This document shows positions 34,139 through 52,720 of a stretch of DNA of 64,000 nucleotides, piece by piece. The stretch comes from Flavobacterium haoranii (lineage in GTDB: Bacteria; Bacteroidota; Bacteroidia; Flavobacteriales; Flavobacteriaceae): NCBI RefSeq assembly GCF_009363055.1, contig NZ_CP045292.1:496001-560000 (forward strand), written 5' to 3'. The position numbers and the translations under genes are program-made. The notes below the pieces were generated by a model. It saw nothing but the letters and a program-made list of their open reading frames with translations. It was not told the origin of the DNA and ran no database searches. The stretch's first letter is position 1; each line of letters starts with the position of its first letter.

Positions 34139-35166
34139 TTACTTTCCATCTCTATCTACCTTAATTTTTTCAGGTCGGTTTGCAAGCTCCCAAGCCAGAG
34201 CAAATGCTAATTGAGCTCTTTTTGCTAAAGCATCGTATTCAATTTTATCTGGAGTATCTGTTGGCATATGATAATCGGCATGAATACCATTAAAAAAGAA
34301 AATTGCAGGAATACCGTGTTTCGCAAAATTATAATGATCAGAACGATAATAAATTCTTTCGGGATCATTTCGGTCATTATATTTATAATCCAAATCCATT
34401 TTGGTGTATTTTTTATTCATTTCTTCATTTATTGTATGAAGTTCAGAACTTAATCTATCTGATCCAATAACATAAACATAATTGTTAGTATTTGTGTGAA
34501 GTGTATCACGACGGCCTATCATGTCAATGTTGATATCGGCAACAGTTTTATCAAGAGGAAATAATGGATTTTGAGAATAATATCTAGAACCGTGTAACCC
34601 ATGTTCTTCACCTGTTACATGTAAAAATAAAATTGATCTTTTTGGTTTAAAGCCATCTTTTTCGGCTTGTTTAAAAGCTTGAGCTATTTCTAATAAAGCA
34701 ACAGTTCCAGATCCATCATCATCAGCTCCATTATAAACTTCACCATTTTTCATTCCTACATGATCATAATGTGCCGAAACGACAACAATTTCATCTTTTT
34801 TATCAGTTCCTTCTATAAAAGCCCAAATATTTTCAGAATCGGGAAGCTTTGGAGCAAAACCTCTAGCCATGAATTCAGCAGGAACTTTTTGGTACCAACT
34901 ATCAGCAGTAGCAGGATGGTTAATTCCATTTTTTTGATATTGTTCAATTAAATATTTTCCTGCTTTTTTTGTCCATCAGACCCTGTGTCACGTCCTTCAT
35001 TTTCATCAGAAGCTACAATGTACAGATGAGTTTTAAGTTCGTCTGCTGTTATAGATTCTAAATATTTATTAACATCTGCTTGTCTATTAACTTTTATTGG
35101 AGAACAACTAATAGTAAATAAGGCAAAAGAAAAAATAGAGGTTAAAAGTATTTTATTTTTTTTCAT
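34139..35166 (-). pseudogene. M28-family metallopeptidase, frameshifted
   Basis: Zinc aminopeptidase-like lipoprotein split by a one-base deletion. The 5' part (35166-34948) encodes signal peptide and lipobox (SFALFTISC) and the start of the PA/M28 region (HLYIVASDENEGRDTGSDGQ). The rest, 34965-34139, continues in another frame with VSAHYDHVGMKNGEVYNGADDDGSG, GEEHGLHGSR, NIDMIGR and SDHYNFAKHGIPA, which carry the zinc ligands. Adding one A to the seven-A run at 34965-34971 restores about 342 residues. The junction is also a dnaX-type slippery heptamer A AAA AAG in the right frame, so -1 frameshifting is conceivable; a sequence error is simpler. Confidence 0.85.
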
Positions 35167-35257
35167 TCATTAATGTTTTTTGTAAATGTAAACTATTTGT
35201 AGGTTTTAAAATAGAATGTTACAATTTTAATTGTTAAAAATGAGGTTAATAGACGAA

Positions 35258-37153: not shown

Positions 37154-39900
37154 ATGTTGAAAAGAACTTTCCTTTATATATTTTTTCTGTTTTTTACTTT
37201 AGTAATTAAAGCACAAGAAGTTTTACCATTAGTAAAAAATTATACTAAGCAAGATTATAATGGTGATAATCAAGTTTGGAATCTTACTCAAGGAAAAGAT
37301 AATGCTATGTATTTCGCTAATAATGGTTTTTTATTGCGATATGATGGTGTTAAGTGGGAAAAATATACATTACCAAATCAGTCTATAATTCGATCAGTTT
37401 ACTCTTTTGAAGATAAAATTTATACAGGATCTTATAATGAATTTGGATATTGGAAAAGAGTAGACGGAAAAATGGTTTATACTTCTGTTTCTGGACCAAA
37501 AAAAGTTTTCAAAAATTACACAAATAGTGAAGAAATATGGAAAATATTTAACGTTGGTAAAACTTTGTATTTTCAATCTTTTAATGAACTTTTTGTAGAT
37601 AATGGTAAAGCAATTAAGAAGATTAATTTTCCTTCACAAATTTCCTATTGTTTTGTTTTAGACGATGAAATTTATGTTGCAACCGTTAGAAAAGGTGTTT
37701 ATAAGTTTAAAAATAACGATTTTCAAAAAGTTGATTATTTTTCTGCAGTAGATGATAATATTGTCCACGGTATTGAAAAGAATGAAAACGATATTTATAT
37801 TTTCACCCAAAAAAATGGTGTTTTTATTAGTAAAAATAATGGAAATGCGATTCCTTGGACTCATGATATCAACGAAAAATTAAAATCTCAAATTGTTATT
37901 TCTGCCAAAATTTTAGATCATAAGCTATTTATTGGAACAGCTTTTAACGGATTGTATGTAGTTGATTTAAATTCGCAATATTTCTACAATATCAATAGGT
38001 CAAATGTTTTAAAAAATAATTCAGTTTTAAATGTATTTGCAGATAAAGAAAAAATATTTGGCTTGGCTTAGATAATGGGATTTCTCATATTGTTCAAAAT
38101 TCTCCCTATAAAATTTTTGCTGATTATTCAGGCCAATTAGGAACAGTTTATGCGCTTGCAAAATATAATAATGGATTTTTAATTGGATCAAATCATGGTG
38201 TTTTTGAAGCTAATGATAAAAAAATTAGACTAATTCCAAATTCTCAAGGTCAAGTTTGGAATGTTTTAAAAATCAATAATGATTATATAATTGGACACAA
38301 CGAAGGAACTTTTTTATATGCCAATGAAAGTTATAAAAGGATTAATGATTTAACTGGAGGTTGGAAACTACAAAAAGATAAATATTCAAACGATTATATT
38401 CAATCAAATTATACCGGATTGTATAAATATGTAAATGGAGATTTTTCTAAAGCTATTAAAATTAATGATAGAACAAAACCAGTAAAGGATTTTCTACAAA
38501 TAAGCGAACACATTTTTATTTATACCGATAGTTATCGAGGTTTATTTAAATTAGAATTGAATCGCGATAACAGTATCAAAAAAATTACAAATCTTTCAGA
38601 AGAAAATAAAATTGATAATGATTATAATGTAAAAATGTTTCAATATAAAGGGACTGAATTATTTTATATTAACAATTCTTGGTACTCTTTAGATATTGTA
38701 AACGACAAATTAATTTTAAATGATCAGTTTAATAAAGCTTTTAAAAATGTTCAAGAGCTTATAAGTATAGATGATAGTCATTTTTTAATAAATAAAAATG
38801 GAGTTCTATACATAATTAACCAAGTTAAAGATGCTTTTGTTTGGACTCCAATTCCCCTAGAGTATTATCAAGGAAAGCTAATCAATAATGAAACAAAGAT
38901 TTTTCAATTAGATAATAAGTTTTTGGTAAATATGGATGATGGTTTTTTAATGATAGATTCTATTCAAACGAAAAATCGCAACCAAAAAATTAGAATTGAA
39001 GCCTTTAATTCAGAAAATGGGATAGTTAATGAAGGTGATAATATTTCATACAAAGAACAATTAAAAGTATATGTTATTTCCGAATATTTTGGAAGCAATA
39101 AAACACTCTTATATTATAAAGTTGACGATGAAGAACTACAAACTCTAGAAAATGGATTTATTGATCTAAAAAATTTATATAGTGGTAGCCATACAATAAC
39201 CATTTATAATTCAAATGATGGTGATTTTAATAAAATAGCAGCATATAGTTTCAATGTTCTAAATCCTTGGTATTTTTCATTTTGGATGAAATTGGTATAT
39301 TTCTTATTAATTTCAGGTATATTTTATTTGTATTATAAATGGAATAAAATAAAGTATTATCAAAAATTAAAGCTTAAGGAAGAGGAATTACGACATAAAA
39401 ATGAAATTCTTCGTTTAGAGATTGAAGCTGATAATAAAATTAAACTTCAAGAATACGAAAAACATTTACTTGAAAATCAAGTACAAGTGAAAGCAAATGA
39501 ATTGGCAAGTAAGTCTTTATCTATCGTGAAACAAACAGAGTTAATAGAAAGTATTCAAAATATTTTAGATACAGAAACTACTACATCAAGTTTAAAGAAT
39601 AAAATAGGTAAAGCGATAAAAATCAATTCATTAAATAAGAACGAATGGAAGTCTTTTGAAGATAACCTACTTAAAAGCAATGAAGATTTTGTCAAAGAAT
39701 TATCAAAACGATATCAAAATCTTACTTCAAAAGATATCAAATTATGCATCTATTTAAAGATGAATTTATCTTCCAAAGAGATTGCTCCTTTAATGAATAT
39801 AAGCTATAGAGGAGTCGAATTACATCGTTATCGCTTGCGTAAAAAGCTTGATTTAGATCCATCAGTTAACCTAAATTTGTTTATGAATAATATATTTTAA
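37154..39900 (+). pseudogene. SusR-like PUL regulator (propeller, Y_Y_Y, LuxR-type HTH), frameshifted
   Basis: Single-protein membrane regulator expected to sense glycan fragments in the periplasm and control the adjacent locus. After a signal sequence comes a beta-propeller of ligand-sensor repeats (about 30-650), a Y_Y_Y domain, a transmembrane helix (FWMKLVYFLLISGIFYLYY), a coiled coil and a C-terminal LuxR-type HTH (LTSKDIKLCIYLKMNLSSKEI). The first frame ends at 38071. Adding one A to the run at 38049-38054 continues it as DKEKNIWLGLDNGISHIV and restores about 915 residues. Either the regulator is inactive here or the base is a sequencing error. Confidence 0.85.
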
Positions 39901-39986
39901 GTGATAATTTTTTATTAAAATATTATTTTTTTATAGCTTTTTTTTACGTTTTTATAACACATCATTAATACATCAAATTTATATTT

Positions 39987-40017
39987 AATAACACTCTTTT
40001 TGAGTGTTATTTTTTTA
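39987..40017 (+). terminator. Terminator after the PUL regulator
   Basis: AATAACACTC/GAGTGTTATT stem with a 5-base T loop and a T-tail. It separates the regulator transcript from susC. Confidence 0.85.
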
Positions 40018-40091
40018 TGTAAATAATTGATATTAAATACTTTAAATAAAATATGATGTGTTTTGATGTAGTAATGTAGTGTAATAAATAA

Positions 40092-40122
40092 TTGTTAATA
40101 CAACGTTGTAGTTGTAATTTTA
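40092..40122 (+). promoter_or_regulatory. Promoter of susC with a palindrome in the spacer
   Basis: TTG at 40092-40094, 20 bases, then TAATTTTA at 40115-40122 (one mismatch to TAnnTTTG). The perfect 12-bp palindrome TACAACGTTGTA at 40099-40110 lies inside the spacer and is a candidate binding site for a regulator. Confidence 0.5.
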
Positions 40123-40151
40123 GCCTATAAAACCTTAACAAAATTTTACAA

Positions 40152-43151
40152 ATGAGACAAATTTTATTATTTATTTCATTACTCATTTTACCATTTGTTT
40201 CTTTTTCACAAGAGATAAAAGGTAATGTAGTGGATGATCAAGGTAATCCCTTAATAGGTGTTACCATACATGCCTCTCAATCTGATAAATATACCACAAC
40301 AGATTTTGACGGTAATTTTGCTCTTGAAGCAAAGCAGGGTGAAGATGTTGTTTTCACTTTTATTGGTTTTGAAACATTAACAATGAAAGCTGCTCAAAAT
40401 ATGCAAGCAGTATTAAAGGAAAGTGTTACACAACTTGAAGACGTGGTAATGATTGGTTATGGTACTGCAAAAAAACGAGATTTAACTGGTTCAATAGTTA
40501 GTATTAAAGGTGAAGAAGTAGCTGATAAACCAAATAACAATGTTCTTAACTCATTACAAGGTAAAGTAGCTGGTTTACAAGTTGTGAATTCTGGGCAACC
40601 TGGTTCTGAACCAGATGTACGTATTAGAGGAACTATCAGTTTGTATCAAACTAAACCTTTGTATGTAGTTGATGGTATTTTTACTGATAATATTGATTTC
40701 ATTAACCCTAGTGATATTGCATCATTAGAAGTTTTAAAAGATCCATCTTCATTATCAGTATTTGGTGCTCGTGGTGCAAATGGTGTAATTTTAGTTACAA
40801 CTAAAAGAGCTAAAACAGGTGAGACTTTAATTAATTATAATACTTCAGTTGGTTTTAAGAGTATTACAGGACAACCTGATATGGCAAACGCTTCTCAGTT
40901 CAAAACTTTATATGAGATGCAAAGAGAAAATCAAGGTATAGCTCCTTACTCTTATTATAATTTATATGCTGCCGATACTGATTGGGTTGATACTATAGCT
41001 AATGATAATGCATTATTCTATAATCATAACATTTCATTTTCTAACTCAACAGAAAATAATAAAATATATGCTGGTTTTGGATATTCAAACGAAGAAGGTT
41101 TAGTAAAAAATGAATTATATAAAAAATTCACAGCTAATTTAAATGATGAATTAACACTTAAAAAGAATTTAAAATTAGGTCTTAATTTAAACTTTTTAGA
41201 TGCTCGTTTACCAAGATTAGGCAATTTTACTAGTGCAATAAATTCAACTCCAATTGTTGCACCTTATAATAATGCTTTAGGTGTATATAATCAATTACCT
41301 ACTGAAATGGGAGGTGCACAATTAGGGAATCCTCTTTTAGAAGTGGAAGGTAAAAATGGTACACAATTAAATAGAGATACTCGTTTTGTAGCAAATGTTT
41401 ATGCAGAATTAAAATTTTTAGAACATTTTACATTGAGAGGAGCTTATTTAGCTGATTTAGATTATAATAAAGGTAGAGGATATACTCCCGTTTTTAATGT
41501 TTATGCTGCAGAATCTGACGACTTAACGGCTTATGGATCTAATTTATTAACAAAAGTTAATCAATACAGCAATTATAAGCAAAACTTACAGCAAGATTAC
41601 ACATTATCTTATAAGAATACTTTTGGAAAGCACAATGTAACTTTATTAGCAGGTCATACTCGATATGAAGAATATTTTTCTGCTATGAGTGGTACTGTTT
41701 CTCAATATGCACCAAATTATAATGCAGATGGAGTGGATACAAATCAAATTCCTAATGATCCAAGATGGTGGTATTTAAATGTATTTCCATATGGAGATCC
41801 TACAACTAGATTGTCAAATTCTTCTCAATGGGATAGAGCTACTTTATCTTATTTAGGTCGTGTTCTTTATAACTATGACGGAAAATACATGGTTAATGCT
41901 TCGTTAAGACGTGATGATTCTTCAGAAATTAGAAAAGCACAAAACTTCTGGGCTGTTGGTGCTGCTTGGGAAATTTCTAAAGAGAATTTCTTTAAAAATG
42001 ATTATGTAAGCTATTTAAAAATAAAAGGCTCAATAGGTGAACAAGGTAATCAATTTACATCATTACATTATCCAACTTATCCACTTTATGTATCAGGTCA
42101 AAGTGCTGTGTTTGGTGAAAATCTTGTTCCTGCAAATATTTTAGCTTACAGAGTTAATCCAAATTTAAAATGGGAAACAGTTTTCTCAAAAGAAATAGGA
42201 TTTGAAGCTACTGCTTTTAATAACAAATTATCATTAGAAGTAAATTATTATGATAAAACTACTGATGGTTTATTGGCATATATTACTACTTCAACGGATG
42301 AGTTTTATGGTAACGTAGGTGAAGTTAAAAATAATGGTTTTGAGTTTGTTGCTTCTTGGAAAAATGAAGTTAACGACAAATTTAATTATTCAATTTCAGG
42401 GAACTTAACTACGATGAATAATAAAGTAGTGAGTTTATATGATGATGGGTTTGACTATTTTTCTAACCCTACTAGAACTATTGCAGGACAACCTATTAGT
42501 TCTTTTTATGGTTATATTGTAGAAGGTGTTTATCAAACTGAAGCAGATGTATTATTATCGCCTACAAGTAATGTTGGAAATTATGGAGTAGGTGACTTAA
42601 AATTCAAAGATGTAAATGGTGATGGTATAATTACTGCTGACGATAGAACTTATATAGGTAATCCAACTCCAGATTTTACTTATGGTTTTTCAGCTAATTT
42701 AAATTATAATAATTGGAGTTTAGGATTAGATTTTCAAGGTGTTTATGGTAATGAAGTTTATAGAAATTGGGGTAATGGTTCTACATATGCTCAATTTAAC
42801 TATAGAACAGCACGCTTAAATGCATGGAACGGACCAGGAACTTCAAATTGGGAACCTCAAGTTAATGATGCCTCTGGTTATAATTCAATGGCTTCTACTT
42901 ACATGGTTGAAGACGGTAGTTATTTACGTTTAAGAAATGTTCAGTTAGCATATAATTTTAATGCTTCATTTTTAGATAAATTAAGTATTAAGAGTTTAAA
43001 AATGTTCTTAAATGCTCAAAATATGGTGACTTGGAGAAATAATTCAGGATTTACTCCAGAATTTGGTGGTAGTCCAACTCAATTTGGTGTAGATAATGGT
43101 TCATACCCAATTCCAGTTATTACTACTGTAGGTTTAAATGTTACTTTTTAA
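40152..43151 (+). CDS. SusC/RagA-family TonB-dependent receptor
   Basis: Outer-membrane importer for oligosaccharides, 999 residues. Signal peptide (about 1-20), CarboxypepD-reg-like domain (IKGNVVDDQGNPLIGVTIHA, about 22-100), plug domain (DVVMIGYGTAKKRDLTGSIV, PLYVVDGIFTDNI, VLKDPSSLSVFGARGANGVI) and a long beta-barrel ending in VITTVGLNVTF. It pairs with the SusD gene 11 bases on, which should cap the barrel. It is the first gene of the structural part of the glycan locus. Confidence 0.96.
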   Translation: MRQILLFISLLILPFVSFSQEIKGNVVDDQGNPLIGVTIHASQSDKYTTTDFDGNFALEAKQGEDVVFTFIGFETLTMKAAQNMQAVLKESVTQLEDVVMIGYGTAKKRDLTGSIVSIKGEEVADKPNNNVLNSLQGKVAGLQVVNSGQPGSEPDVRIRGTISLYQTKPLYVVDGIFTDNIDFINPSDIASLEVLKDPSSLSVFGARGANGVILVTTKRAKTGETLINYNTSVGFKSITGQPDMANASQFKTLYEMQRENQGIAPYSYYNLYAADTDWVDTIANDNALFYNHNISFSNSTENNKIYAGFGYSNEEGLVKNELYKKFTANLNDELTLKKNLKLGLNLNFLDARLPRLGNFTSAINSTPIVAPYNNALGVYNQLPTEMGGAQLGNPLLEVEGKNGTQLNRDTRFVANVYAELKFLEHFTLRGAYLADLDYNKGRGYTPVFNVYAAESDDLTAYGSNLLTKVNQYSNYKQNLQQDYTLSYKNTFGKHNVTLLAGHTRYEEYFSAMSGTVSQYAPNYNADGVDTNQIPNDPRWWYLNVFPYGDPTTRLSNSSQWDRATLSYLGRVLYNYDGKYMVNASLRRDDSSEIRKAQNFWAVGAAWEISKENFFKNDYVSYLKIKGSIGEQGNQFTSLHYPTYPLYVSGQSAVFGENLVPANILAYRVNPNLKWETVFSKEIGFEATAFNNKLSLEVNYYDKTTDGLLAYITTSTDEFYGNVGEVKNNGFEFVASWKNEVNDKFNYSISGNLTTMNNKVVSLYDDGFDYFSNPTRTIAGQPISSFYGYIVEGVYQTEADVLLSPTSNVGNYGVGDLKFKDVNGDGIITADDRTYIGNPTPDFTYGFSANLNYNNWSLGLDFQGVYGNEVYRNWGNGSTYAQFNYRTARLNAWNGPGTSNWEPQVNDASGYNSMASTYMVEDGSYLRLRNVQLAYNFNASFLDKLSIKSLKMFLNAQNMVTWRNNSGFTPEFGGSPTQFGVDNGSYPIPVITTVGLNVTF

Positions 43152-43162
43152 TAAAATTGATT

Positions 43163-44641
43163 ATGAAAAATATAAATAAGATAAAATTCTTTGCTTTAGC
43201 TTCTTTACTTGCATTAGGAGTAGCTTCATGTGATGATGATTTTTTAGATAGAAAACCATTAGGTAATGCCGCAGCAGGTGATTTACCAGGTGGTGGTTTT
43301 GAAGAAAGAACATTTGGTCTATATGGTTTAATGAGAACTTCTGATGGGGTTACAAATATTCCTAGATTGTTCTTTCAAAGTATTCGCTCAGATGATGCTA
43401 TGAAGGGAAGTACTTCTTCTGATGCTTCTTTACAAGGAAATATTTTTGATGGTTTTCAATATAATGCAACAGAGACTTGGATTACTCTAGCGAATTGGAA
43501 AGGACATTATAACGTTATTTTTGAATGCAATGATATTATTACTGATATTGATGCAATTGAAAATCCAGATAATGCAACCCTTGGTTTTAAAGCAGAAGCA
43601 ATGGCACTGCGTGCATTCTGTTATTTCGATTTAAGAAGAGATTTTGGTGAAGTTCCTATTATCCTTAATAAAGTTGAAGTTCCTTCTGATGGTATTGCTC
43701 CTAAATCTACAGTTGCTCAAGTTGATGCTCAAATAATTAGCGATTTAGAGTTTGCTAAAGATTACTTGCCAACGGCTTGGTCTGCTTATCCTGGTAGAGC
43801 AACAAAAGGTTTCGCACAAACATTATTAGCAAAATTATATTTATATCGTCAAGAGTGGCAAAACTGTATTGATCAATTAAACGATGTAATGACTTATGGT
43901 TATGCTTTACATAATGATTTTGTTGAATTGTTTTTACAAGATGGTGATAATTCAACTGAGTCTGTTTTTGAAATTCAATTTTTGCGTTTAGCAGGAGTTA
44001 ACTATTCAAATAATTATTGGGAAGTTCAAGGAGTACGTGGTACAGGTTCTTGGGATTTAGGATGGGGTTTCAATGTTCCTACTCAAAATTTAGTAGATGC
44101 TTTTGAAACTGGAGATCCTAGAAGAAATGCAACTATTCTTTATTCAGGTCAAGGAGATGGTTATGGTTTAACAGTGCCAGATTTTCCTCCATTAGCACAA
44201 CCTTATTGGAATAAAAAAGCATATAGTTTACCAAGTGAAAGATCTCAGTTTTCTGAAAATAAAAACCATTGGGCAAATATCAAAATTATGCGTTATGCAG
44301 ATGTTTTATTAATGTATGCTGAAGCATTAAATGAATTAGGACAATCTTCAACAGCTATTGATTATATCAACCAAGTTAGAGCTAGAGCTAGAGGAGGAAA
44401 TGTAACAGTATTACCAGATGTAACATCAACAGATCAAGCAACAGTTAGAGATGCAATTAAGCACGAAAGAAGAATTGAGTTTGCTATGGAAGGTGAAAGA
44501 TTCTATGATTTAGTTCGTTGGGGAGATGCTACTACAGTTTTAGGACCATTGGGTTACCAAGCTAGAAACGAGTATTATCCAATCCCTCAATCTGCTATAG
44601 ACCAGTCTGGTGGAGTTTTAATTCAAAATCCAAATTATTAA
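43163..44641 (+). CDS. SusD/RagB-family lipoprotein
   Basis: Surface glycan-binding lipoprotein that lids the SusC barrel. It has 492 residues from the ATG at 43163 (MKNINKIKFF); the TTG start six bases earlier is unlikely. Lipobox in LLALGVASCDDDFLDRKP. Typical features: AEAMALRAFCYFDLRRDFGEVPI, GRATKGFAQTLLAKLYLYRQEW (TPR-like), RYADVLLMYAEALNELG and RRIEFAMEGERFYDLVRWGD. It lies directly after susC. Confidence 0.96.
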   Translation: MKNINKIKFFALASLLALGVASCDDDFLDRKPLGNAAAGDLPGGGFEERTFGLYGLMRTSDGVTNIPRLFFQSIRSDDAMKGSTSSDASLQGNIFDGFQYNATETWITLANWKGHYNVIFECNDIITDIDAIENPDNATLGFKAEAMALRAFCYFDLRRDFGEVPIILNKVEVPSDGIAPKSTVAQVDAQIISDLEFAKDYLPTAWSAYPGRATKGFAQTLLAKLYLYRQEWQNCIDQLNDVMTYGYALHNDFVELFLQDGDNSTESVFEIQFLRLAGVNYSNNYWEVQGVRGTGSWDLGWGFNVPTQNLVDAFETGDPRRNATILYSGQGDGYGLTVPDFPPLAQPYWNKKAYSLPSERSQFSENKNHWANIKIMRYADVLLMYAEALNELGQSSTAIDYINQVRARARGGNVTVLPDVTSTDQATVRDAIKHERRIEFAMEGERFYDLVRWGDATTVLGPLGYQARNEYYPIPQSAIDQSGGVLIQNPNY

Positions 44642-44649
44642 TAATTGTT

Positions 44650-44676
44650 TTGGAACAGTTCTTTGAGCTGTTCCAA
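44650..44676 (+). promoter_or_regulatory. Hairpin between susD and the LamG gene
   Basis: TTGGAACAG/CTGTTCCAA stem with a 9-base loop. It has no long T-tract, so it may be an mRNA-stabilizing or attenuating element rather than a full terminator. Confidence 0.5.
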
Positions 44677-44692
44677 TTTAAAAATATTCATT

Positions 44693-45580
44693 ATGAAAAT
44701 AAATTCAATTGTTTTATCAAAAGTAAGCGTATTTATTGCGACAACTTTTTTATTAGTTGGATGCCAAAATATGGATGAACCGGCTTTAGGAGACTACCCA
44801 ACAGACGAGGCAAATATTCCTGCAGGAGATTTAAGATTTTTTGTTCCTTTCGATAAGGAGGCAGATTTAATCAGATTTAAATTTGCAGAAGATTTATCGG
44901 GATATCCTTGTTTTACACCTGATAATTCTGTTTCTCAAGAAGAAGGTGTTAATTCTGGAGCATTCAAAAGCGGAGCTTCAGGTTCATTTTTGAAGTATTT
45001 AAATGCAAATGACTTTGCAACTGTTGCAGAAAGCTTTACAGTTTCTCTTTGGGAAAAAAGAGATGGACAAACAAAAAATAATACAGGTGCAAATGGTCCT
45101 GAGTATCCTTTTAGTTTTACAGTTAAGAATGGATATCATTGGTCAGGTTCAAATTTCTTTTTATTATTAGAAGGAGATAATTCTGGATGTGCTGTTAAAG
45201 TTGTTGTAGCAACTGGTGATAATGGTTCAGGTGCAGCTTCTGCAGATACATGGTTAACTTGGGAAGGAGCAGCATCAATTCCTGGGTTATTAGATAACGA
45301 ATGGCATCATTTAGTATTTGTTTACGATGCAACAACTTCTGGTTTAACGTTTTATAAAGATGGTGTTGCAATTGGTACTAAAACTTGGGGAAGTCATGGA
45401 CCAATTAATTTCATGAATTCAGCTGTAACAAGCTTCAGAATTGGTTGTGGTCCAGGGTCTAGTTTTACTACTGGTGATTGGTTATCTTCTTCATGGAAAG
45501 GAAGTTTAGATCAATTTAGATTGTATGCAACAGCATTATCTGCAAGTGAAGTACAAGATTTATATACCAATAATAACTAA
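44693..45580 (+). CDS. LamG-domain surface lipoprotein
   Basis: Probable surface glycan-binding protein of the locus, 295 residues from the ATG at 44693; the frame opens 48 bases earlier in a hairpin. Lipobox in FLLVGCQNMDEP. The rest is one concanavalin/LamG-like jelly roll: FTVSLWEKRDGQ, NEWHHLVFVYDATTSGLTFYKDGVAIG, and the terminal WKGSLDQFRLYATALSASEV. No catalytic residues are seen. Its position third after SusC/SusD fits a SusE/F-like binding role. Confidence 0.85.
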   Translation: MKINSIVLSKVSVFIATTFLLVGCQNMDEPALGDYPTDEANIPAGDLRFFVPFDKEADLIRFKFAEDLSGYPCFTPDNSVSQEEGVNSGAFKSGASGSFLKYLNANDFATVAESFTVSLWEKRDGQTKNNTGANGPEYPFSFTVKNGYHWSGSNFFLLLEGDNSGCAVKVVVATGDNGSGAASADTWLTWEGAASIPGLLDNEWHHLVFVYDATTSGLTFYKDGVAIGTKTWGSHGPINFMNSAVTSFRIGCGPGSSFTTGDWLSSSWKGSLDQFRLYATALSASEVQDLYTNNN

Positions 45581-45590
45581 TTATAATTTT

Positions 45591-45616
45591 TTAGCCTGTC
45601 ATCATTGGCAGGCTAA
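45591..45616 (+). promoter_or_regulatory. Hairpin between the LamG and GH144 genes
   Basis: Ten-bp stem TTAGCCTGTC/GGCAGGCTAA with one T-G pair and a 6-base loop, followed by a weak AT tract; probable attenuator or partial terminator inside the operon. Confidence 0.5.
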
Positions 45617-45632
45617 ATTTTAAAATTTCAAA

Positions 45633-47000
45633 ATGAGAATTTTAAACTACATTTTTATTTTTTTGCTTTTTTCTTCTGTAAGTTGTTCTGATAATAGTGG
45701 AAATAGTGATGGTGCAACTACTCCAGAACCAACACCTTTATCGGATGACGAATTAATGAATTTAGTACAACGCGATGCTTTTAAATATTTCTGGGATTAC
45801 GCTCATCCTAATAGTAAGTTAGCTAGAGAACGTTACGTTGTGAATGATCCTGCTTTCGATCAAAATATCGTAACTACTGGTGGTTCAGGTTTTGGTCTTA
45901 TGACAATTTTAGTTGGTATTGAAAGAGGTTTTGTTCCTAGAACAGAAGCTGTTGCAAGATTAACTACAGCATTAAATTTTTTAGAGAATGCTGACCGTTT
46001 TCATGGAGCTTGGCCACACTGGATGGATGGAAATACAGGAAACGTAATTCCTTTCGGAACAATGGATAATGGAGGAGATTTAGTTGAAACTGCTTTTTTA
46101 TGTGAAAGTTTTATTTGTATTCGCGAATATTTCAAAAATGGAAATACTCAAGAGCAAGCATTAGCTCAAAAAGCAGATGATTTATGGAAAGGTGTAGAAT
46201 GGTATTGGTATACCAAAGGGGAAAATGCATTATACTGGCATTGGTCACCAAATTATGAGTGGCAAATGAACTTTAAATTAGAAGGATATAATGAATGTTT
46301 AGCAGCTTATATTATGGGAGCAGCTTCACCAACTCATAGTATTCCAAATGAAGCCTATCACCAAGCTTGGGCTAGAAATGGTGCCATCGTAAGTTCTGGA
46401 ACTAAATTTGGAATTCCACTTATTTTTAATCACAACGGAGCAAATGGAACTGTCGGACCTTTATTTTGGGCACATTATTCGTATTTAGGCTTAGACCCAA
46501 GAGGTCTTTCAGATCAATATGCGAATTATTGGAATTTAAATAAAAATCATACAGAAATTATCTACCAACATTGTGTTACAAACCCAAACAATTATACAGG
46601 TTACAGCAATAAATGTTGGGGATTAACGGCTAGTTATACGCGTAATTCTGATGGTTCTACAGGTTATACTGCACATCAGCCAAGTAATGATACTGGTGTC
46701 ATTACACCTACAGCAGCATTATCGTCATTTCCCTACACACCAACAGAGTCTATGCGTTTTCTTAGATATTTATACGAAGAAAAGAAAGATCAATATGTTG
46801 GCGTTGCCGGACCTTATGATGCGTTTTCACCTAAATACAGTTGGGTAACTCAAAGATTTTTGGCTATCGATCAAGGTACAATTGCACCAATGATTGAAAA
46901 CCATAGAACTGGATTATTATGGAATTTATTCATGCAAGCGCCAGAAGTAAAAACAGGTTTACAAAACTTAGGATTTTCATCAACTCAACACGGATTTTAA
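45633..47000 (+). CDS. GH144-type lipoprotein (glucoamylase-like; putative endo-beta-1,2-glucanase)
   Basis: A 455-residue lipoprotein (lipobox FSSVSC). The alpha/alpha-barrel shows LMNLVQRDAFKYFWDYAHP, GGSGFGLMTILVGIERGFV, FHGAWPHWMDGNTG, DNGGDLVETAFLCES, WHWSPNYEWQM and YTPTESMRFLRYLYEE. This is the group long annotated as glucoamylase family (PF10091), whose characterized bacterial members became GH144 endo-beta-1,2-glucanases. The reaction is therefore probably cleavage of beta-1,2-glucan at the cell surface. The stop overlaps the next start by one base. Confidence 0.85.
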   Translation: MRILNYIFIFLLFSSVSCSDNSGNSDGATTPEPTPLSDDELMNLVQRDAFKYFWDYAHPNSKLARERYVVNDPAFDQNIVTTGGSGFGLMTILVGIERGFVPRTEAVARLTTALNFLENADRFHGAWPHWMDGNTGNVIPFGTMDNGGDLVETAFLCESFICIREYFKNGNTQEQALAQKADDLWKGVEWYWYTKGENALYWHWSPNYEWQMNFKLEGYNECLAAYIMGAASPTHSIPNEAYHQAWARNGAIVSSGTKFGIPLIFNHNGANGTVGPLFWAHYSYLGLDPRGLSDQYANYWNLNKNHTEIIYQHCVTNPNNYTGYSNKCWGLTASYTRNSDGSTGYTAHQPSNDTGVITPTAALSSFPYTPTESMRFLRYLYEEKKDQYVGVAGPYDAFSPKYSWVTQRFLAIDQGTIAPMIENHRTGLLWNLFMQAPEVKTGLQNLGFSSTQHGF

Positions 47001-47695
47001 TGAGAAAAATTATTGCCCTTATTGCCCTATTTTTATTTAATGATATTTTAGCTCAAGATGTATCTGCCAAATTTGAAACCTCGATTTCAACAAATTATTC
47101 GTATCAATATGCTTTGCATAAACCTAAAGGAAAAGAGAAAAAGCCATTAATCATTTTCCTTCATGGTTCTGGTGAAAAAGGAGAAGATGTAGAATTGGTA
47201 AAAGTTCACGGTCCGTTTAAGTATTTAAAAACGCACGAAATTGACGCTTATGTTTTGGCACCTCAATGTCCAAAAGAAGTGTATTGGGAACCAGAATCTT
47301 TGTACCAATTAATTCAAAAAATAATCAAAGATAACAAGAACATCGACGAATCAAGAATTTACCTAACCGGTTTAAGTATGGGAGCTTGGGGAGCTTGGAA
47401 TTTAGCTTTTGCGCATCCAGATATGTTTGCAGCTTTGGTACCAATTGCTGGTTTTGTAGATCGTGTACCTATGATTGAAAACTGTAAAATTGGAGAAATC
47501 CCAACGCGTATTTTCCATGGATTAGTTGATGATGTAGTCGATGTACGCTATTCGATTGATATTTATAAAAAATTAAAAGGTTGTGCCAAAGATATTGAGT
47601 TAACCATTTTTGATGATGCTAATCACGATAGTTGGTCAAGAGTGTATGATAATCCAGAAATCTATGAGTGGATGTTAAAACAGAAAAAGAACTAA
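47000..47695 (+). CDS. Exported alpha/beta-hydrolase (esterase)
   Basis: A 231-residue secreted serine hydrolase. The ATG at 47000 overlaps the GH144 stop (TAATG) and starts a signal peptide, MRKIIALIALFLFNDILAQ; an upstream extension of the frame inside GH144 is rejected. The oxyanion region is LIIFLHGSGEKGED, the nucleophile Ser is in GLSMGAWGAW, the acid is in HGLVDDVVDV and the His in DDANHDSW. It probably removes an ester substituent from the glycan; which one is unknown. Confidence 0.85.
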   Translation: MRKIIALIALFLFNDILAQDVSAKFETSISTNYSYQYALHKPKGKEKKPLIIFLHGSGEKGEDVELVKVHGPFKYLKTHEIDAYVLAPQCPKEVYWEPESLYQLIQKIIKDNKNIDESRIYLTGLSMGAWGAWNLAFAHPDMFAALVPIAGFVDRVPMIENCKIGEIPTRIFHGLVDDVVDVRYSIDIYKKLKGCAKDIELTIFDDANHDSWSRVYDNPEIYEWMLKQKKN

Positions 47696-47720
47696 AACCA
47701 GAATAAATTAAAAATTACCA

Positions 47721-50030
47721 ATGAAACTAAGAACAATTAGTCTTTTTGTGGCAACAGTTTTGCTTTCAACTGCTACTTTTGCTCAAAAGAAAAATAAACA
47801 AAAAACAATTCCTTCAAAAGACGTTTTAGTAACAGAGTTGTTATCTAAAATGACTTTAGAAGAAAAAATAGGTCAGTTAAATTTACCAAGTGCTGGTGAA
47901 TTTACAACTGGTCAAGCTACCAATTCAGATATTGGTGGAAAAATTGAAAAAGGATTAGTAGGAGGATTATTCAATATAAAATCAGTAGCACGTATTAGAG
48001 ATGTGCAAAAAGTTGCTGTAGAAAAAAGCCGTTTAAAAATTCCATTGATTTTCGGAATGGACGTCATTCATGGGTACGAAACTACGTTTCCAATTCCTTT
48101 GGGATTATCATGTAGTTGGGATATGAATCATATTAAAACATCGGCTCAAATTGCAGCTAAAGAAGCAAGTGCTGATGGAATTAACTGGACATTTTCTCCA
48201 ATGGTTGATATTTCTCGTGATCCACGTTGGGGTAGAGCATCAGAGGGTTCAGGTGAAGATGCATATTTAGGAAGTCAAATTTCTAAAGCAATGGTTCACG
48301 GTTATCAAGGGAATAGTTTAATGGACAACAACACTATTATGGCTTGTGTAAAACACTTTGCTTTATATGGTGCGCCAGAAGCTGGTAGAGATTATAATAC
48401 GGTTGATATGAGTCACATTCGTATGTATAACGAATATTTCCCACCTTATAAAGCGGCTGTTGATGCCGGTGTTGGTTCAGTAATGGCGTCTTTCAATGAA
48501 ATTGATGGTGTTCCGGCGACAGGAAACAAATGGTTAATGACTGATGTTTTACGTAACCAATGGAAATTCAATGGTTTTGTGGTAACAGATTATACAGGAA
48601 TCAACGAAATGATTGAGCATGGAATGGGCGATTTACAAGCGGTTTCTGCTTTAGCAATGAATGCTGGAATTGATATGGATATGGTGGGTGAAGGTTTCTT
48701 AACTACACTTAAAAAATCTGTTGAAGAAGGAAAAGTTCCAATGGCACAGTTAGATGCTGCGGTTAGACGAATTTTAGAAGCTAAATACGATTTAGGTCTT
48801 TTCCATGATCCGTATAAATATTGCGATGTTAAACGAGCTAAAACTGAAATTTTTACAAAAGAAAATCGTCAAATTGCGCAAAATATTGCTGCTGAATCTT
48901 TTGTATTGTTGAAAAACTCAAAATCTGTTTTACCATTACAAGCCAATCAAAAAGTAGCATTAGTTGGTCCTTTGGCAATTGCTCAAAAACACATGCCTGG
49001 AACTTGGAGTGTAGCAACTAATTTCGATACGCCAATTACCTTAAGAACAGCTTTAGAAGCTAAATTAGGTCAAGCCAATGTAAATTATGCTATGGGTTGT
49101 AATTTTGATTATGATCCGGCATTTGTTGAAAAAGCAGGTTTCTTCGGAAAACCATTGCCAAGCGATAGTAGAGCGAAAGAAGTGCTTTGGGCAGAAGCTT
49201 TAGAAGCTGCTAAAAAATCGGATGTTATTGTATTTGCAATAGGTGAAGGTGCAGAATTAAGTGGAGAATCGAGTAGTAGAACCAATCTTCAAATTCCGCA
49301 AGCACAAAAAGATTTATTAAAAGAATTGAAAAAAGCGAACAAACCTATTGTTTTGGTTTTATTCAATGGACGTCCTTTAGCGATTACAGAAGAAAATGAA
49401 TTAGCAGATGCTATTTTAGATGTTTGGTTCCCTGGAACTGAAGCGGGTCCTGCTATTACTGATGTTTTATACGGAACAGTAAATCCTTCAGGAAAATTAT
49501 CAATGACATTCCCTAGAAATGTTGGACAAGTGCCTATTTTCTACAATCATAAAAATACAGGAAGACCTTTAAGTTTAGAAAAAACACAAAAAGGTGAATT
49601 CGAAAAATTCCGTTCTAATTATTTAGACGTTCCTAACACACCATTATTCCCATTCGGATATGGTTTAAGTTATACTTCTTTCGATTATTCTAACTTTAAA
49701 GTCTCGTCAAATACGTTATCAAAAGGTGGAAAAATTACCGTTTCTGTTGATGTGAAAAACACTGGGAATTTTGATGGTAAAGAAGTTGTACAATTATACA
49801 TCAGAGATTTAGTAGGTTCTGTTACAAGACCTGTTAAAGAATTAAAAGGTTTCCAAAAAGTAGCTATTAAAAAAGGAGAAACAAAAAACATCAGTTTTGA
49901 ATTGACTGAGGAAGATTTAAAATTCTATAATTCTAATTTAGATTTTGTTGCTGAAGCTGGAGAATTTGAAGTTTTTGTAGGAACCAATTCGGATACCCAA
50001 ATGAAATTAAAATTTGAGTTAGTAAAATAA
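47721..50030 (+). CDS. bglX: GH3 beta-glucosidase (BglX-like)
   Basis: Periplasmic exo-glycosidase, 769 residues with a signal peptide (about 1-21). The GH3 N-terminal barrel has PLIFGMDVIHGYETTFPIPLG, SEGSGEDAYLG and VKHFALYGAPEAGRDYNTV; the nucleophile Asp is in GFVVTDYTGINEM. The C-terminal GH3 sandwich has LLKNSKSVLPL and the C-terminal Fn3-like domain has LFPFGYGLSYTSFDY and KNTGNFDGKEVVQLYI. It is expected to degrade the oligosaccharides released by the GH144 enzyme. It is 25 bases after the esterase gene, with no hairpin between. Confidence 0.95.
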   Translation: MKLRTISLFVATVLLSTATFAQKKNKQKTIPSKDVLVTELLSKMTLEEKIGQLNLPSAGEFTTGQATNSDIGGKIEKGLVGGLFNIKSVARIRDVQKVAVEKSRLKIPLIFGMDVIHGYETTFPIPLGLSCSWDMNHIKTSAQIAAKEASADGINWTFSPMVDISRDPRWGRASEGSGEDAYLGSQISKAMVHGYQGNSLMDNNTIMACVKHFALYGAPEAGRDYNTVDMSHIRMYNEYFPPYKAAVDAGVGSVMASFNEIDGVPATGNKWLMTDVLRNQWKFNGFVVTDYTGINEMIEHGMGDLQAVSALAMNAGIDMDMVGEGFLTTLKKSVEEGKVPMAQLDAAVRRILEAKYDLGLFHDPYKYCDVKRAKTEIFTKENRQIAQNIAAESFVLLKNSKSVLPLQANQKVALVGPLAIAQKHMPGTWSVATNFDTPITLRTALEAKLGQANVNYAMGCNFDYDPAFVEKAGFFGKPLPSDSRAKEVLWAEALEAAKKSDVIVFAIGEGAELSGESSSRTNLQIPQAQKDLLKELKKANKPIVLVLFNGRPLAITEENELADAILDVWFPGTEAGPAITDVLYGTVNPSGKLSMTFPRNVGQVPIFYNHKNTGRPLSLEKTQKGEFEKFRSNYLDVPNTPLFPFGYGLSYTSFDYSNFKVSSNTLSKGGKITVSVDVKNTGNFDGKEVVQLYIRDLVGSVTRPVKELKGFQKVAIKKGETKNISFELTEEDLKFYNSNLDFVAEAGEFEVFVGTNSDTQMKLKFELVK

Positions 50031-50054
50031 ATTGTTTAGTTTAAATTGAAAGTG

Positions 50055-50087
50055 CCCTTTGGTAGTAATGCTAAAGGGTATTTTTTT
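50055..50087 (+). terminator. Terminator-like hairpin after the GH3 gene
   Basis: CCCTTTGGT/GCTAAAGGG stem (two wobble pairs) and a seven-T tail. It would reduce or stop transcription into the last two genes of the locus. Confidence 0.65.
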
Positions 50088-50100
50088 AAGATCTAAAAAG

Positions 50101-51855
50101 ATGAAAAAAATTATTTTAGTAATCGTTTTACATTTTGCTTTTCTAAGTTTAGCTCAGCAAAAAACCTTTTGTAATCCAATCAATGTAGATTACGGATATA
50201 CACCATTTAAAAGTTTTTCGGCTCAAGGAAAACATCGTGCCACAGCCGATCCGGTAATTGTAAATTTTCAAAATAAATACTTTTTGTTTTCAACCAATCA
50301 AGAAGGCTATTGGTGGAGTGACGATATGTTGCACTGGAAATTTGTATACCGAAAGTTTCTTTTAGACGACAAATACACACACGATTTAAATGCGCCGGGA
50401 ATTTTTACTATGAAAGATACGATGTATGTTTATGGTTCAACTCATGAGAAAGATTTTCCAATTTGGAAAAGTACTAATCCAACAAAAGACGATTGGCAAA
50501 TAGCTGTCGATACATTAAAAGTAGGAGCATGGGATCCTGGTTTTTTATACGACGAAGAAAAAGATAAATTGTATTTATATTGGGGTTCAAGTAACGAATT
50601 TCCATTAATGGGAACCGAATTAAATACCAAAACATTACAATCAGATGGTTTTGTAAAACCGATGTTGACTTTAAAGCCTGAAGATCATGGTTGGGAACGT
50701 TTTGGCGAATACAGCGATAATACGTTTTTGCAACCTTTTATGGAAGGTGCTTGGGTAACCAAATACAAAAACAAATATTACCTACAATATGCAGCTCCCG
50801 CAACTGAATTCAGTGGTTATGCCGATGGTGTGTACGTGAGTTCAAATCCATTAGAAGGTTTTGCTTACCAACAACACAATCCGTTGTCGTATAAACCCGG
50901 AGGTTTTGCTCGTGGTGCTGGTCATGGTGCAACATATCAGGATAATTTTGGGAATTGGTGGCATGTTTCTACTATTATTTTGGGACAAAAAAACAACTTC
51001 GAAAGACGTTTAGGGATTTGGCCAGCCGGTTTCGATCAAGATGATGTCATGTATTGTAACACGGCTTATGGCGATTATCCAACGTTTATTCCGGAATATG
51101 CAAAAGGGAAAGATTTTACTAAAGGTTTATTTGCTGGATGGATGTTGTTAAATTACAATAAACCTGTTCAAGTTTCATCGACTTTAGGAGGATATTCGCC
51201 TAATTATGTGGTTGATGAAGACATGAGAACCTATTGGAGTGCCAAAACAGGTGAAAAAGGCGAGTGGTTTCAAACCGATTTAGTTGAAGTTTCTACTGTA
51301 AATGCAATCCAAATTAATTATGCCGATCAAGATGTAGAATTCTTAGGAAAAAGTCAAGGTGTATTTCATCAGTACAAAATTTGGGCTTCAAATGATGGTA
51401 AAAAATGGGAATTGGCTGTAGATAAAAGCAAAAATAATACAGATGTTCCGCATGATTATATTGAATTGGCAAAGCCAATAAAAGCACGCTATTTGAAATT
51501 GGAAAACCTAAAAATGCCAACAGGAAAATTTGCTTTGAGCGGTTTCCGTGTTTTTGGGAAAGGAAATGGAAAAGCTCCGGAAAAAGTGGAAAATTTCATG
51601 GTTTTACGCGCTGATAAAGCTAAATTTGGCGAAAGAAGAAGTTCTTGGATTCGTTGGAAACAAAACAATTTAGCTGACGGTTATGTGATTTATTTCGGGA
51701 AATCGCCTGATAAATTATACGGAAGTATCATGGTGTATGGGAAAAACGATTATTTCTTTACAGGAATGGATAGAACCGATACCTATTATTTCCAAATTGA
51801 AGCCTTTAATGCCAATGGAATTAGCGAAAGAACAGAAGTTATAAAAGTAGACTAA
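50101..51855 (+). CDS. GH43-like propeller protein with discoidin and Fn3 domains
   Basis: A 584-residue exported protein from the ATG at 50101 (MKKIILVIVLHFAFL); an upstream frame extension crosses a terminator. The N-terminal five-bladed propeller resembles GH43 (ATADPVIVNFQNKYFLFST, WDPGFLYDEEKDKLYLYWG, GARGAGHGATYQDN region). A F5/8-type discoidin/CBM32 domain follows (about 350-485: YVVDEDMRTYWSAKTG, ARYLKLENLKMPTG), then an Fn3 domain. The substrate is unknown; it could be debranching or another glycosidase. It overlaps the next start (TAATG). Confidence 0.82.
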   Translation: MKKIILVIVLHFAFLSLAQQKTFCNPINVDYGYTPFKSFSAQGKHRATADPVIVNFQNKYFLFSTNQEGYWWSDDMLHWKFVYRKFLLDDKYTHDLNAPGIFTMKDTMYVYGSTHEKDFPIWKSTNPTKDDWQIAVDTLKVGAWDPGFLYDEEKDKLYLYWGSSNEFPLMGTELNTKTLQSDGFVKPMLTLKPEDHGWERFGEYSDNTFLQPFMEGAWVTKYKNKYYLQYAAPATEFSGYADGVYVSSNPLEGFAYQQHNPLSYKPGGFARGAGHGATYQDNFGNWWHVSTIILGQKNNFERRLGIWPAGFDQDDVMYCNTAYGDYPTFIPEYAKGKDFTKGLFAGWMLLNYNKPVQVSSTLGGYSPNYVVDEDMRTYWSAKTGEKGEWFQTDLVEVSTVNAIQINYADQDVEFLGKSQGVFHQYKIWASNDGKKWELAVDKSKNNTDVPHDYIELAKPIKARYLKLENLKMPTGKFALSGFRVFGKGNGKAPEKVENFMVLRADKAKFGERRSSWIRWKQNNLADGYVIYFGKSPDKLYGSIMVYGKNDYFFTGMDRTDTYYFQIEAFNANGISERTEVIKVD

Positions 51856-52685
51856 TGAAAAAGCTTGTTTTTTTATTTCTTTGGATTCCCACAATGGTTT
51901 TGGCTCAAAACGATTTGAGTGTGATGAGCTATAATGTGCGTTTGGGTTCGGCTGAAGATGGTGAAAACAGTTGGGATTTTCGCAAGGAAAAAGTAGCCGA
52001 ATTAATAGGCTATTACGAGCCTGATTTCTTAGGAATGCAGGAAGTTCAGAAAATGCAATTAGATTATTTGTTGGAAAATCTTTCGCAATACAAATTTATT
52101 GGTTTACCAAGAGAAAATGGGGAATTTGCAGAATATTCGTGTATTTTTTATAATGCCGAAAAGTTTAAAGTTTTAGAATACAAATCCTTTTGGTTGTCTG
52201 AAACCCCAAACGAAATGTCTAAAGGTTGGGATGCTGCTTGTCATCGAATTGTAACCTATGGATTATTTCAGGATAAAAAGAGCAAACAGAAATTTTGGAT
52301 TGCCAACACACATTTAGATCACATGGGCATGAAAGCGCGTGAAGAATCGGCGAAAATGTTAGTTGAGTTTTCTAAAGAGTTGAAAACTAAAAAAAATATT
52401 CCGTTTATTTTAACAGGAGATTTTAATGCTGAGCCAAATGATAAGGTTATTTCAATTTTAAAAGATACTTTAGTTGATAGTTATACAAGTTCAAATAAAA
52501 AGCCTTATGGACCCAAAGGCACTTGGAATGGATTTAAATTTAATGATAAAATTGAAACTCGTTTAGATTATATTTTTTATACCAAAGAGAAAAGTTTAAC
52601 AGTTGGATCGATTTCAATAATAGACGATTTTTACGATTTTAAATATCCAAGCGATCATTTACCAGTTTTGGTTCATTTTAAATAA
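51855..52685 (+). CDS. Exported EEP-family phosphodiesterase
   Basis: A 276-residue member of the endonuclease/exonuclease/phosphatase superfamily with a signal peptide (MKKLVFLFLWIPTMVLAQ). Metal and catalytic motifs: MSYNVRLG, GMQEVQ, IANTHLDH, LTGDFNAEP, RLDYIFY and YPSDHLPVLV. Export and its place at the end of a glycan locus argue against a DNA-repair role and for hydrolysis of a phosphodiester or related group on the glycan; this is inference. It is coupled to the preceding gene by a one-base overlap. Confidence 0.85.
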   Translation: MKKLVFLFLWIPTMVLAQNDLSVMSYNVRLGSAEDGENSWDFRKEKVAELIGYYEPDFLGMQEVQKMQLDYLLENLSQYKFIGLPRENGEFAEYSCIFYNAEKFKVLEYKSFWLSETPNEMSKGWDAACHRIVTYGLFQDKKSKQKFWIANTHLDHMGMKAREESAKMLVEFSKELKTKKNIPFILTGDFNAEPNDKVISILKDTLVDSYTSSNKKPYGPKGTWNGFKFNDKIETRLDYIFYTKEKSLTVGSISIIDDFYDFKYPSDHLPVLVHFK

Positions 52686-52688
52686 AAT

Positions 52689-52720
52689 AAAAAGGGATTA
52701 CAATTTGTAATCCCTTTTTT
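52689..52720. terminator. Bidirectional terminator closing the glycan locus
   Basis: AAAAAGGGATTACA/TGTAATCCCTTTTT stem between converging genes. Confidence 0.88.

Follow-up and report, generated by a model that had tools for sequence, protein, structure and literature searches.

A polysaccharide utilization locus in Flavobacterium haoranii, predicted to act on beta-1,2-glucans of other bacteria and equipped with a secreted phosphoesterase

The window analysed here is a stretch of 64,000 nucleotides from Flavobacterium haoranii (contig NZ_CP045292.1, positions 496,001 to 560,000), whose genome is a single contig of 2.87 Mb. Judged from its sequence, the region between positions 37,154 and 52,685 of the window is a complete polysaccharide utilization locus (PUL), in which a regulator precedes an operon in the order SusC-SusD-LamG-GH144-esterase-GH3-GH43-EEP. 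The susC gene lies beside susD and carbohydrate-active enzymes are encoded in the same operon, which places the locus among the SusCD-type PULs. The listing of open reading frames (ORFs) and the family scans showed that the gene list and coordinates of an initial annotation were correct; the LuxR-type regulator at the start of the interval was absent from it. The very probable function of the locus is to break down beta-1,2-glucans that other bacteria make. The presence of the EEP-family phosphoesterase suggests that the food is a phosphate-decorated beta-1,2-glucan. The features are as follows; likelier gene starts were picked by eye from the N termini.

37154-39900, + strand: LuxR-type regulator in two ORFs (37154-38071 and 38419-39900); GerE 23 bits, just below the cut-off of 23.5
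39987-40011, + strand: hairpin with a T tail in the interval between regulator and susC
40152-43151, + strand: SusC-type TonB-dependent outer-membrane transporter; TIGR04056, 774 bits
43157-44641, + strand: SusD-type surface glycan-binding lipoprotein; PF07980, 147 bits; likelier start 43163
44645-45580, + strand: LamG-domain lipoprotein, probable surface glycan-binding protein; PF13385, 57 bits; likelier start 44693
45633-47000, + strand: predicted GH144 endo-beta-1,2-glucanase lipoprotein; PF10091, 255 bits; 5gzh, 541 bits; E152 and E221
47000-47695, + strand: secreted alpha/beta-hydrolase esterase; PF02230, 52 bits; PDB 3doh and 4q82; likelier start 47000
47721-50030, + strand: GH3 beta-glucosidase of BglX type; PF00933, PF01915 and PF14310; PRK15098, 924 bits (cut-off 666); 5xxl, 1032 bits
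50059-51855, + strand: GH43 enzyme with F5/8 (discoidin) and C-terminal domains; PF00754, with GH43 from profile and fold; likelier start 50101
51855-52685, + strand: secreted EEP-family phosphoesterase, encoded by the final gene of the operon; PF03372, 59 bits; 3mpr and 4c1r; GH144-linked clade
52689-52719, listed on the - strand: palindromic hairpin 3' of the EEP gene, likely the operon end

The junctions from SusC to EEP measured 5, 3, 52, -4, 25, 28 and -1 nucleotides when the esterase was counted from 46997, the last being an overlap of one base between the GH43 and EEP genes. Terminator-like sites were not enriched over shuffled sequence (7 vs. 6.2), so the hairpins that flank the operon carry little weight, and promoter-like sites were uninformative (76 vs. 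81.7 in shuffles). The SusD, LamG and GH144 proteins look like lipoproteins, and the esterase, GH3, GH43 and EEP proteins look like ordinary secreted proteins; these calls were made by eye from the N termini, without a predictor.

No protein of the genome other than the product of 45633-47000 matched PF10091. Among seven solved relatives, the best were 5gzh and 5gzk, each with 541 bits over nearly the full length, and the most distant was 8xul (XCC2207; 118 bits). The two best chains are CpSGL, and the DNGGDLVE motif was fitted to the CpSGL numbering. On this alignment E152 and E221 of the window protein match E142 and E211 of CpSGL, and both catalytic glutamates are thus kept. In CpSGL they are the candidate base and acid, and characterised GH144 enzymes are beta-1,2-glucanases (PMC12102758). 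The GH144 assignment was thus borne out, and membership in this family indicates that the target backbone is a beta-1,2-glucan. The GH3 protein matched 5xxl over residues 27-766, with 3u48, 3u4a, 5tf0 and 9urf scoring slightly higher, so its linkage preference is not deducible from the score. The chain 5xxl is presumably BT_3567, a beta-glucosidase acting on beta-1,2-gluco-oligosaccharides. With this likeness and the PRK15098 score well above its cut-off, the assignment as a beta-glucosidase also held. In the product of 50059-51855 a Pfam scan found the discoidin part only; the GH43 profile and a five-bladed propeller fold with an Asp-Asp-Glu triad confirmed what had been called a GH43-like protein with a discoidin domain.

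The four best solved relatives of the EEP protein were 3mpr, 4c1r, 3g6s and 3l1w. The closest named one, 4c1r (161 bits), carries the name mannosyl-6-phosphatase; as it and 3mpr ranked first, the domain lies nearest to a carbohydrate-acting phosphatase and the protein is a candidate EEP sugar phosphatase. A 30-row tree placed the window EEP within a clade of nine rows (support 99/99), all from GH144 loci; the other members are L002, L003/L100, L004/L092, L024 and L086, with L140, from another family, outermost. EEPs from GH30-containing PULs formed a separate clade together with L175, and a third clade comprised L109, L112 and L116, whose loci also contained a sulfatase.

The census of GH144 loci comprised 33 named loci and 100 loci from two genome draws; a GH144 ORF was present in 132 of these 133 loci, and L092 repeats L004 as L100 repeats L003. 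Each unit was the gene run that surrounds GH144 on the same strand, and the cut-off of 150 bits for EEP and glycerophosphodiester phosphodiesterase (GDPD), with the gap rule, drops some members such as the EEPs of L123 and L125. GDPD was found in 22 of the 132 rows and EEP in 12 (10 distinct loci), and no row contained both; a sulfatase occurred in 12 and GH97 in 16. The 40 loci of the same genus comprised 19 with GDPD, three with EEP and 18 with neither. The gene-order comparison proposed in the initial annotation showed SusC, SusD and GH3 in 38 each of these 40 loci (L090 and L091 are not PULs), GH43 in 34 and the esterase in 32. This conservation of the gene run rules out a chance assembly. 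In 16 of the 132 loci, GH97 adjoined GH3 (e.g., L005-L009, L012, L017, L074, L086, and L098); the GH97 of these sister loci might act on alpha linkages. A homologue of a secreted M28-type peptidase followed GH43 or GH97 in 26 of the 40 same-genus loci (e.g., L065, L067, L073, and L088).

A GH144 tree of 103 rows, labelled with a 9 kb rule (71 neither, 22 GDPD and 10 EEP), required five label changes for GDPD and six for EEP, of which the starred branches force five and five. Because several changes are forced, the association of phosphoesterases with GH144 was not one inherited event. Both labels clustered strongly on the tree, and gains were indistinguishable from losses. The search for other phosphatase families covered 57 of the 230 unlabelled ORFs in GH144 loci and the 25 commonest of the 56 Pfam families in them. 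The commonest were GDSL lipase (9), LamG (8), SSF symporter (4), BD-FAE (3) and carboxylesterase (3), and the only phosphatase-like family among the 25 was that of the HAD hydrolases, with two members.

The linkage was also compared with random placement and with other PULs. Across 20 Flavobacterium genomes, random placement would put 0.16 GDPDs within 10 kb of GH144, and nine of 36 were observed there; for EEP the expectation within 10 kb was 0.49, and four of 102 were members of GH144 operons. One more EEP, that of G078, is situated 9.5 kb from GH144 on the opposite strand and was excluded from the count. Nine of these 20 genomes had the PUL-type GDPD, with 77-83% identity to the L020 protein, and in each it stood beside GH144; a paralogue in G053 with 50% identity was situated elsewhere. 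None of 20 control SusD loci contained EEP, GDPD or this esterase (E 1e-5); the controls were picked by hand from 10 genomes, as about every fourth among the top-scoring matches listed, with GH144 loci skipped. For these 20 controls, and with common descent ignored, the linkage between phosphoesterase and glucanase was above chance and above that of other PULs.

Class-wide draws of 396 genomes each gave relatives of the window EEP (E 1e-60) in 27 genomes, its own included, and relatives of the GDPD (E 1e-40) in 37. In G252, G248 and G303, which represent three genera, EEP and GDPD were neighbours (loci L230, L231 and L232), and the gene order was SusC, SusD-type gene, GDPD-GH16 fusion and EEP. 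L230 also contained GH3, and at the place of its SusD-type gene there was an unlabelled ORF of 508 amino acids. The GDPD-GH16 fusions beside EEP are located as follows.

L230, 6867-8444: GDPD-GH16 fusion
L231, 6829-8403: GDPD-GH16 fusion
L232, 5324-6886: GDPD-GH16 fusion

PF03009 and PF00722 were both present in all three fusions tested; the class-wide draw contained six more GDPD frames of 504-516 amino acids. Since these fusions stand beside EEP in SusCD loci, both phosphoesterases are tied to beta-glucan breakdown, beyond beta-1,2-glucan alone. The idea that EEP marks beta-1,2-glucan loci exclusively was rejected, as EEP also occurs in GH30 and GH16 loci.

Natural osmoregulated periplasmic glucans (OPGs) are beta-1,2-glucans with beta-1,6 branches that bear succinate, phosphoglycerol and phosphoethanolamine, and in glucans cyclised by an alpha-1,6 linkage succinyl or acetyl groups are frequent (PMC11842490). 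The genome gave no match to OpgG (PF04349), a search that did not extend to cyclic-glucan synthase, which makes it probable that the glucan is foreign and unlikely that it is self-made by the OpgG route. We consider it somewhat probable, from gene content, that the locus is a PUL for beta-1,2-glucans with anionic substituents, such as OPGs or cyclic glucans that other bacteria release. The initial annotation had proposed here a system that scavenges decorated periplasmic glucans. The recurrence of two unrelated phosphoesterase families in GH144 loci fits a phosphate-bearing glucan and adds support to that part of the claim; the roles given to phosphoglycerol and succinate are conjectural.

What the sequences show directly is the assignment to enzyme families, the catalytic residues in GH144 and in GH43, the operon and how well it is conserved, and the repeated recruitment of phosphoesterases; on this basis we infer the cell compartments, the order of steps and the action of EEP on a substituent of the glucan. 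The SusD, LamG and GH144 surface lipoproteins would bind and cut the glucan, and the oligosaccharides would be imported via SusC. In the periplasm, acyl groups might be taken off by the esterase and phosphate-containing groups by EEP; GH43 would take off a further residue, and GH3 would bring the remainder to glucose.

Several observations weigh against a PUL for anionic beta-1,2-glucans. Neither phosphoesterase was associated with 71 of the 103 GH144 rows in the tree. The expected figures of 0.16 and 0.49 ignore common descent, and some control loci are mutual orthologues (e.g., L185, L186, and L188). Of the 16 other Flavobacterium EEP regions (L164-L179), ten are PULs in which GH3 accompanies a GH30-type cluster (a Pfam check was made for one GH30), and the other six (including L174, which is the G078 EEP again) show no SusC/D in the stretch. 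The likeness to 4c1r, which is named as a monoesterase, suggests that EEP is a monoesterase too. Furthermore, the phosphoglycerol of OPGs comes from phosphatidylglycerol and hence has the sn-1 form. GlpQ-type GDPDs are specific for sn-glycerol-3-phosphoryl groups and reject sn-1-glycerophosphoryl groups (PMC7086022). The GDPDs of sister loci would thus need another stereospecificity or another target group. LpgD of S. aureus was dropped as a precedent for a GDPD acting on sn-1 head groups, as it yields lysophosphatidic acid whatever the head group (PMC10404611). The PULs with GH30, GH3 and EEP (L164, L165, L167-L169, L173, and L176-L179) in some cases also contained GH16 or GH5.

Three other explanations were considered. 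The first, which we hold to be rather doubtful, is that the locus is an ordinary PUL for undecorated linear or cyclic beta-1,2-glucan, in which the esterase and EEP are general accessories and EEP recovers phosphate from periplasmic phosphate esters such as sugar phosphates. The absence of EEP and GDPD from 98 of the 132 GH144 rows and the EEP homologues in other glucan loci are in line with this, but it does not readily account for two unrelated phosphoesterase families that recur, never together, and are missing from all 20 control SusD loci, or for the three loci in which a GDPD is fused to a glucanase. The second is that the target is a different glycan, which has some linkages of the beta-1,2-glucosyl type as well as other sugars, the latter being attacked by GH43 (and by GH97 in relatives). 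The company of GH43 with GH144 in 34 of 40 same-genus loci, the GH97 in 16 of 132 GH144 loci and a Bacteroides xylanisolvens GH144 PUL with a beta-1,2-galactosidase (PMC11739564) agree with it; however, the GH3 belongs to the BglX-type beta-glucosidases and the characterised GH144 enzymes are beta-1,2-glucanases (PMC12102758), and this explanation is unlikely. That EEP is a secreted nuclease unrelated to the glucan is very improbable and was set aside: PF03372 does include nucleases and there were weak NCBIfam matches to exodeoxyribonuclease III (~29-33 bits, cut-offs at least 99), but nuclease-type chains (nocturnin, yeast Ccr4 type) scored at most 40 bits against 162, the four best solved relatives being 3mpr, 4c1r, 3g6s and 3l1w, and the clade is GH144-linked.

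A PUL for anionic beta-1,2-glucans is the preferred reading, and we tentatively speculate on a wider one. PULs for bacterial beta-glucans decorated with phosphate might form an entire class in Bacteroidota, in which EEP and GDPD, as alternative or successive strippers of phospho-groups, were recruited several times to GH144 loci and, in other beta-glucan loci, came together with GH16 or GH30; charged periplasmic glucans of Proteobacteria would be recycled for carbon and phosphorus, and the GDPDs would have to accept sn-1-glycerophosphoryl groups.

The regulator was a single ORF of 914-941 amino acids in 19 of the 21 relatives where it was labelled, and the other two were a piece of 236 amino acids (L031) and a piece at a contig end (L034). 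A named Flavobacterium record (L002), 97.6% identical to the window over 20.6 kb, has it as one ORF of 918 amino acids. The window is one A shorter than L002 in a run of A near 38053, the sole indel across 35.8-54.1 kb of the alignment, and this one-base difference accounts for the split into two ORFs. It may be a homopolymer artefact. About 3 kb from the regulator, an M28 peptidase gene (34139-34870 and upstream; region 34139-35200) also seems frame-broken. For both broken frames we lean toward small indel errors of assembly over a true disruption.

Only two SusD_RagB matches were found in the genome, one of them in this PUL, and genomes of relatives had up to 43. Bacterial glucan may thus make up an important part of this organism's diet. 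The second match belongs to a locus with a SusE-type protein (L180, C1:2755000-2771000 of the same genome). The locus and its relatives bear on what the GH144 PULs, a frequent class, degrade in nature and on whether bacteria eat the periplasmic glucans of others, and EEP, GDPD and the GDPD-GH16 fusion are concrete proteins for asking how the substituent groups of OPGs come off.

The kind of PUL is known, and the variant bearing a phosphoesterase is apparently undescribed. In the literature searched, which covered few subscription journals, no paper on phosphoesterases in GH144 PULs was found, nor any enzyme system for native charged periplasmic glucans. GH144 PULs are a frequent class directed at beta-1,2-glucans; those of marine origin that include a sulfatase have been read as targeting a decorated glucan (Lapebie et al., 2019, PMC6499787). 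In the available text of that study, PULs were grouped by CE, GH and PL families, sulfatases and peptidases, and the remark on phosphodiesterases concerned loci without carbohydrate-active enzymes; phosphoesterases in GH144 PULs would therefore escape this grouping. A Maribacter cluster has the order GH3-GH144-GH144-SusCD-sulfatase (PMC8072126). These PULs resemble the present one in SusCD, GH144 and GH3, in the beta-1,2-glucan target and in the idea of a decorated glucan; they differ in the sulfatase, in whose place EEP is found here, along with an esterase and GH43. At the level of single proteins, the predicted glucanase resembles CpSGL of a different species in its near-full-length match and the same catalytic glutamates, the GH3 resembles 5xxl among other GH3 enzymes, and EEP shares its fold family with 4c1r, the sugar here presumably being glucose. 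The B. xylanisolvens PUL is alike in SusCD, GH144 and an accessory enzyme inactive on plain beta-1,2-gluco-oligosaccharides; as described, that enzyme is a GH35 beta-1,2-galactosidase, whereas GH43, EEP and the esterase are found here instead (PMC11739564).

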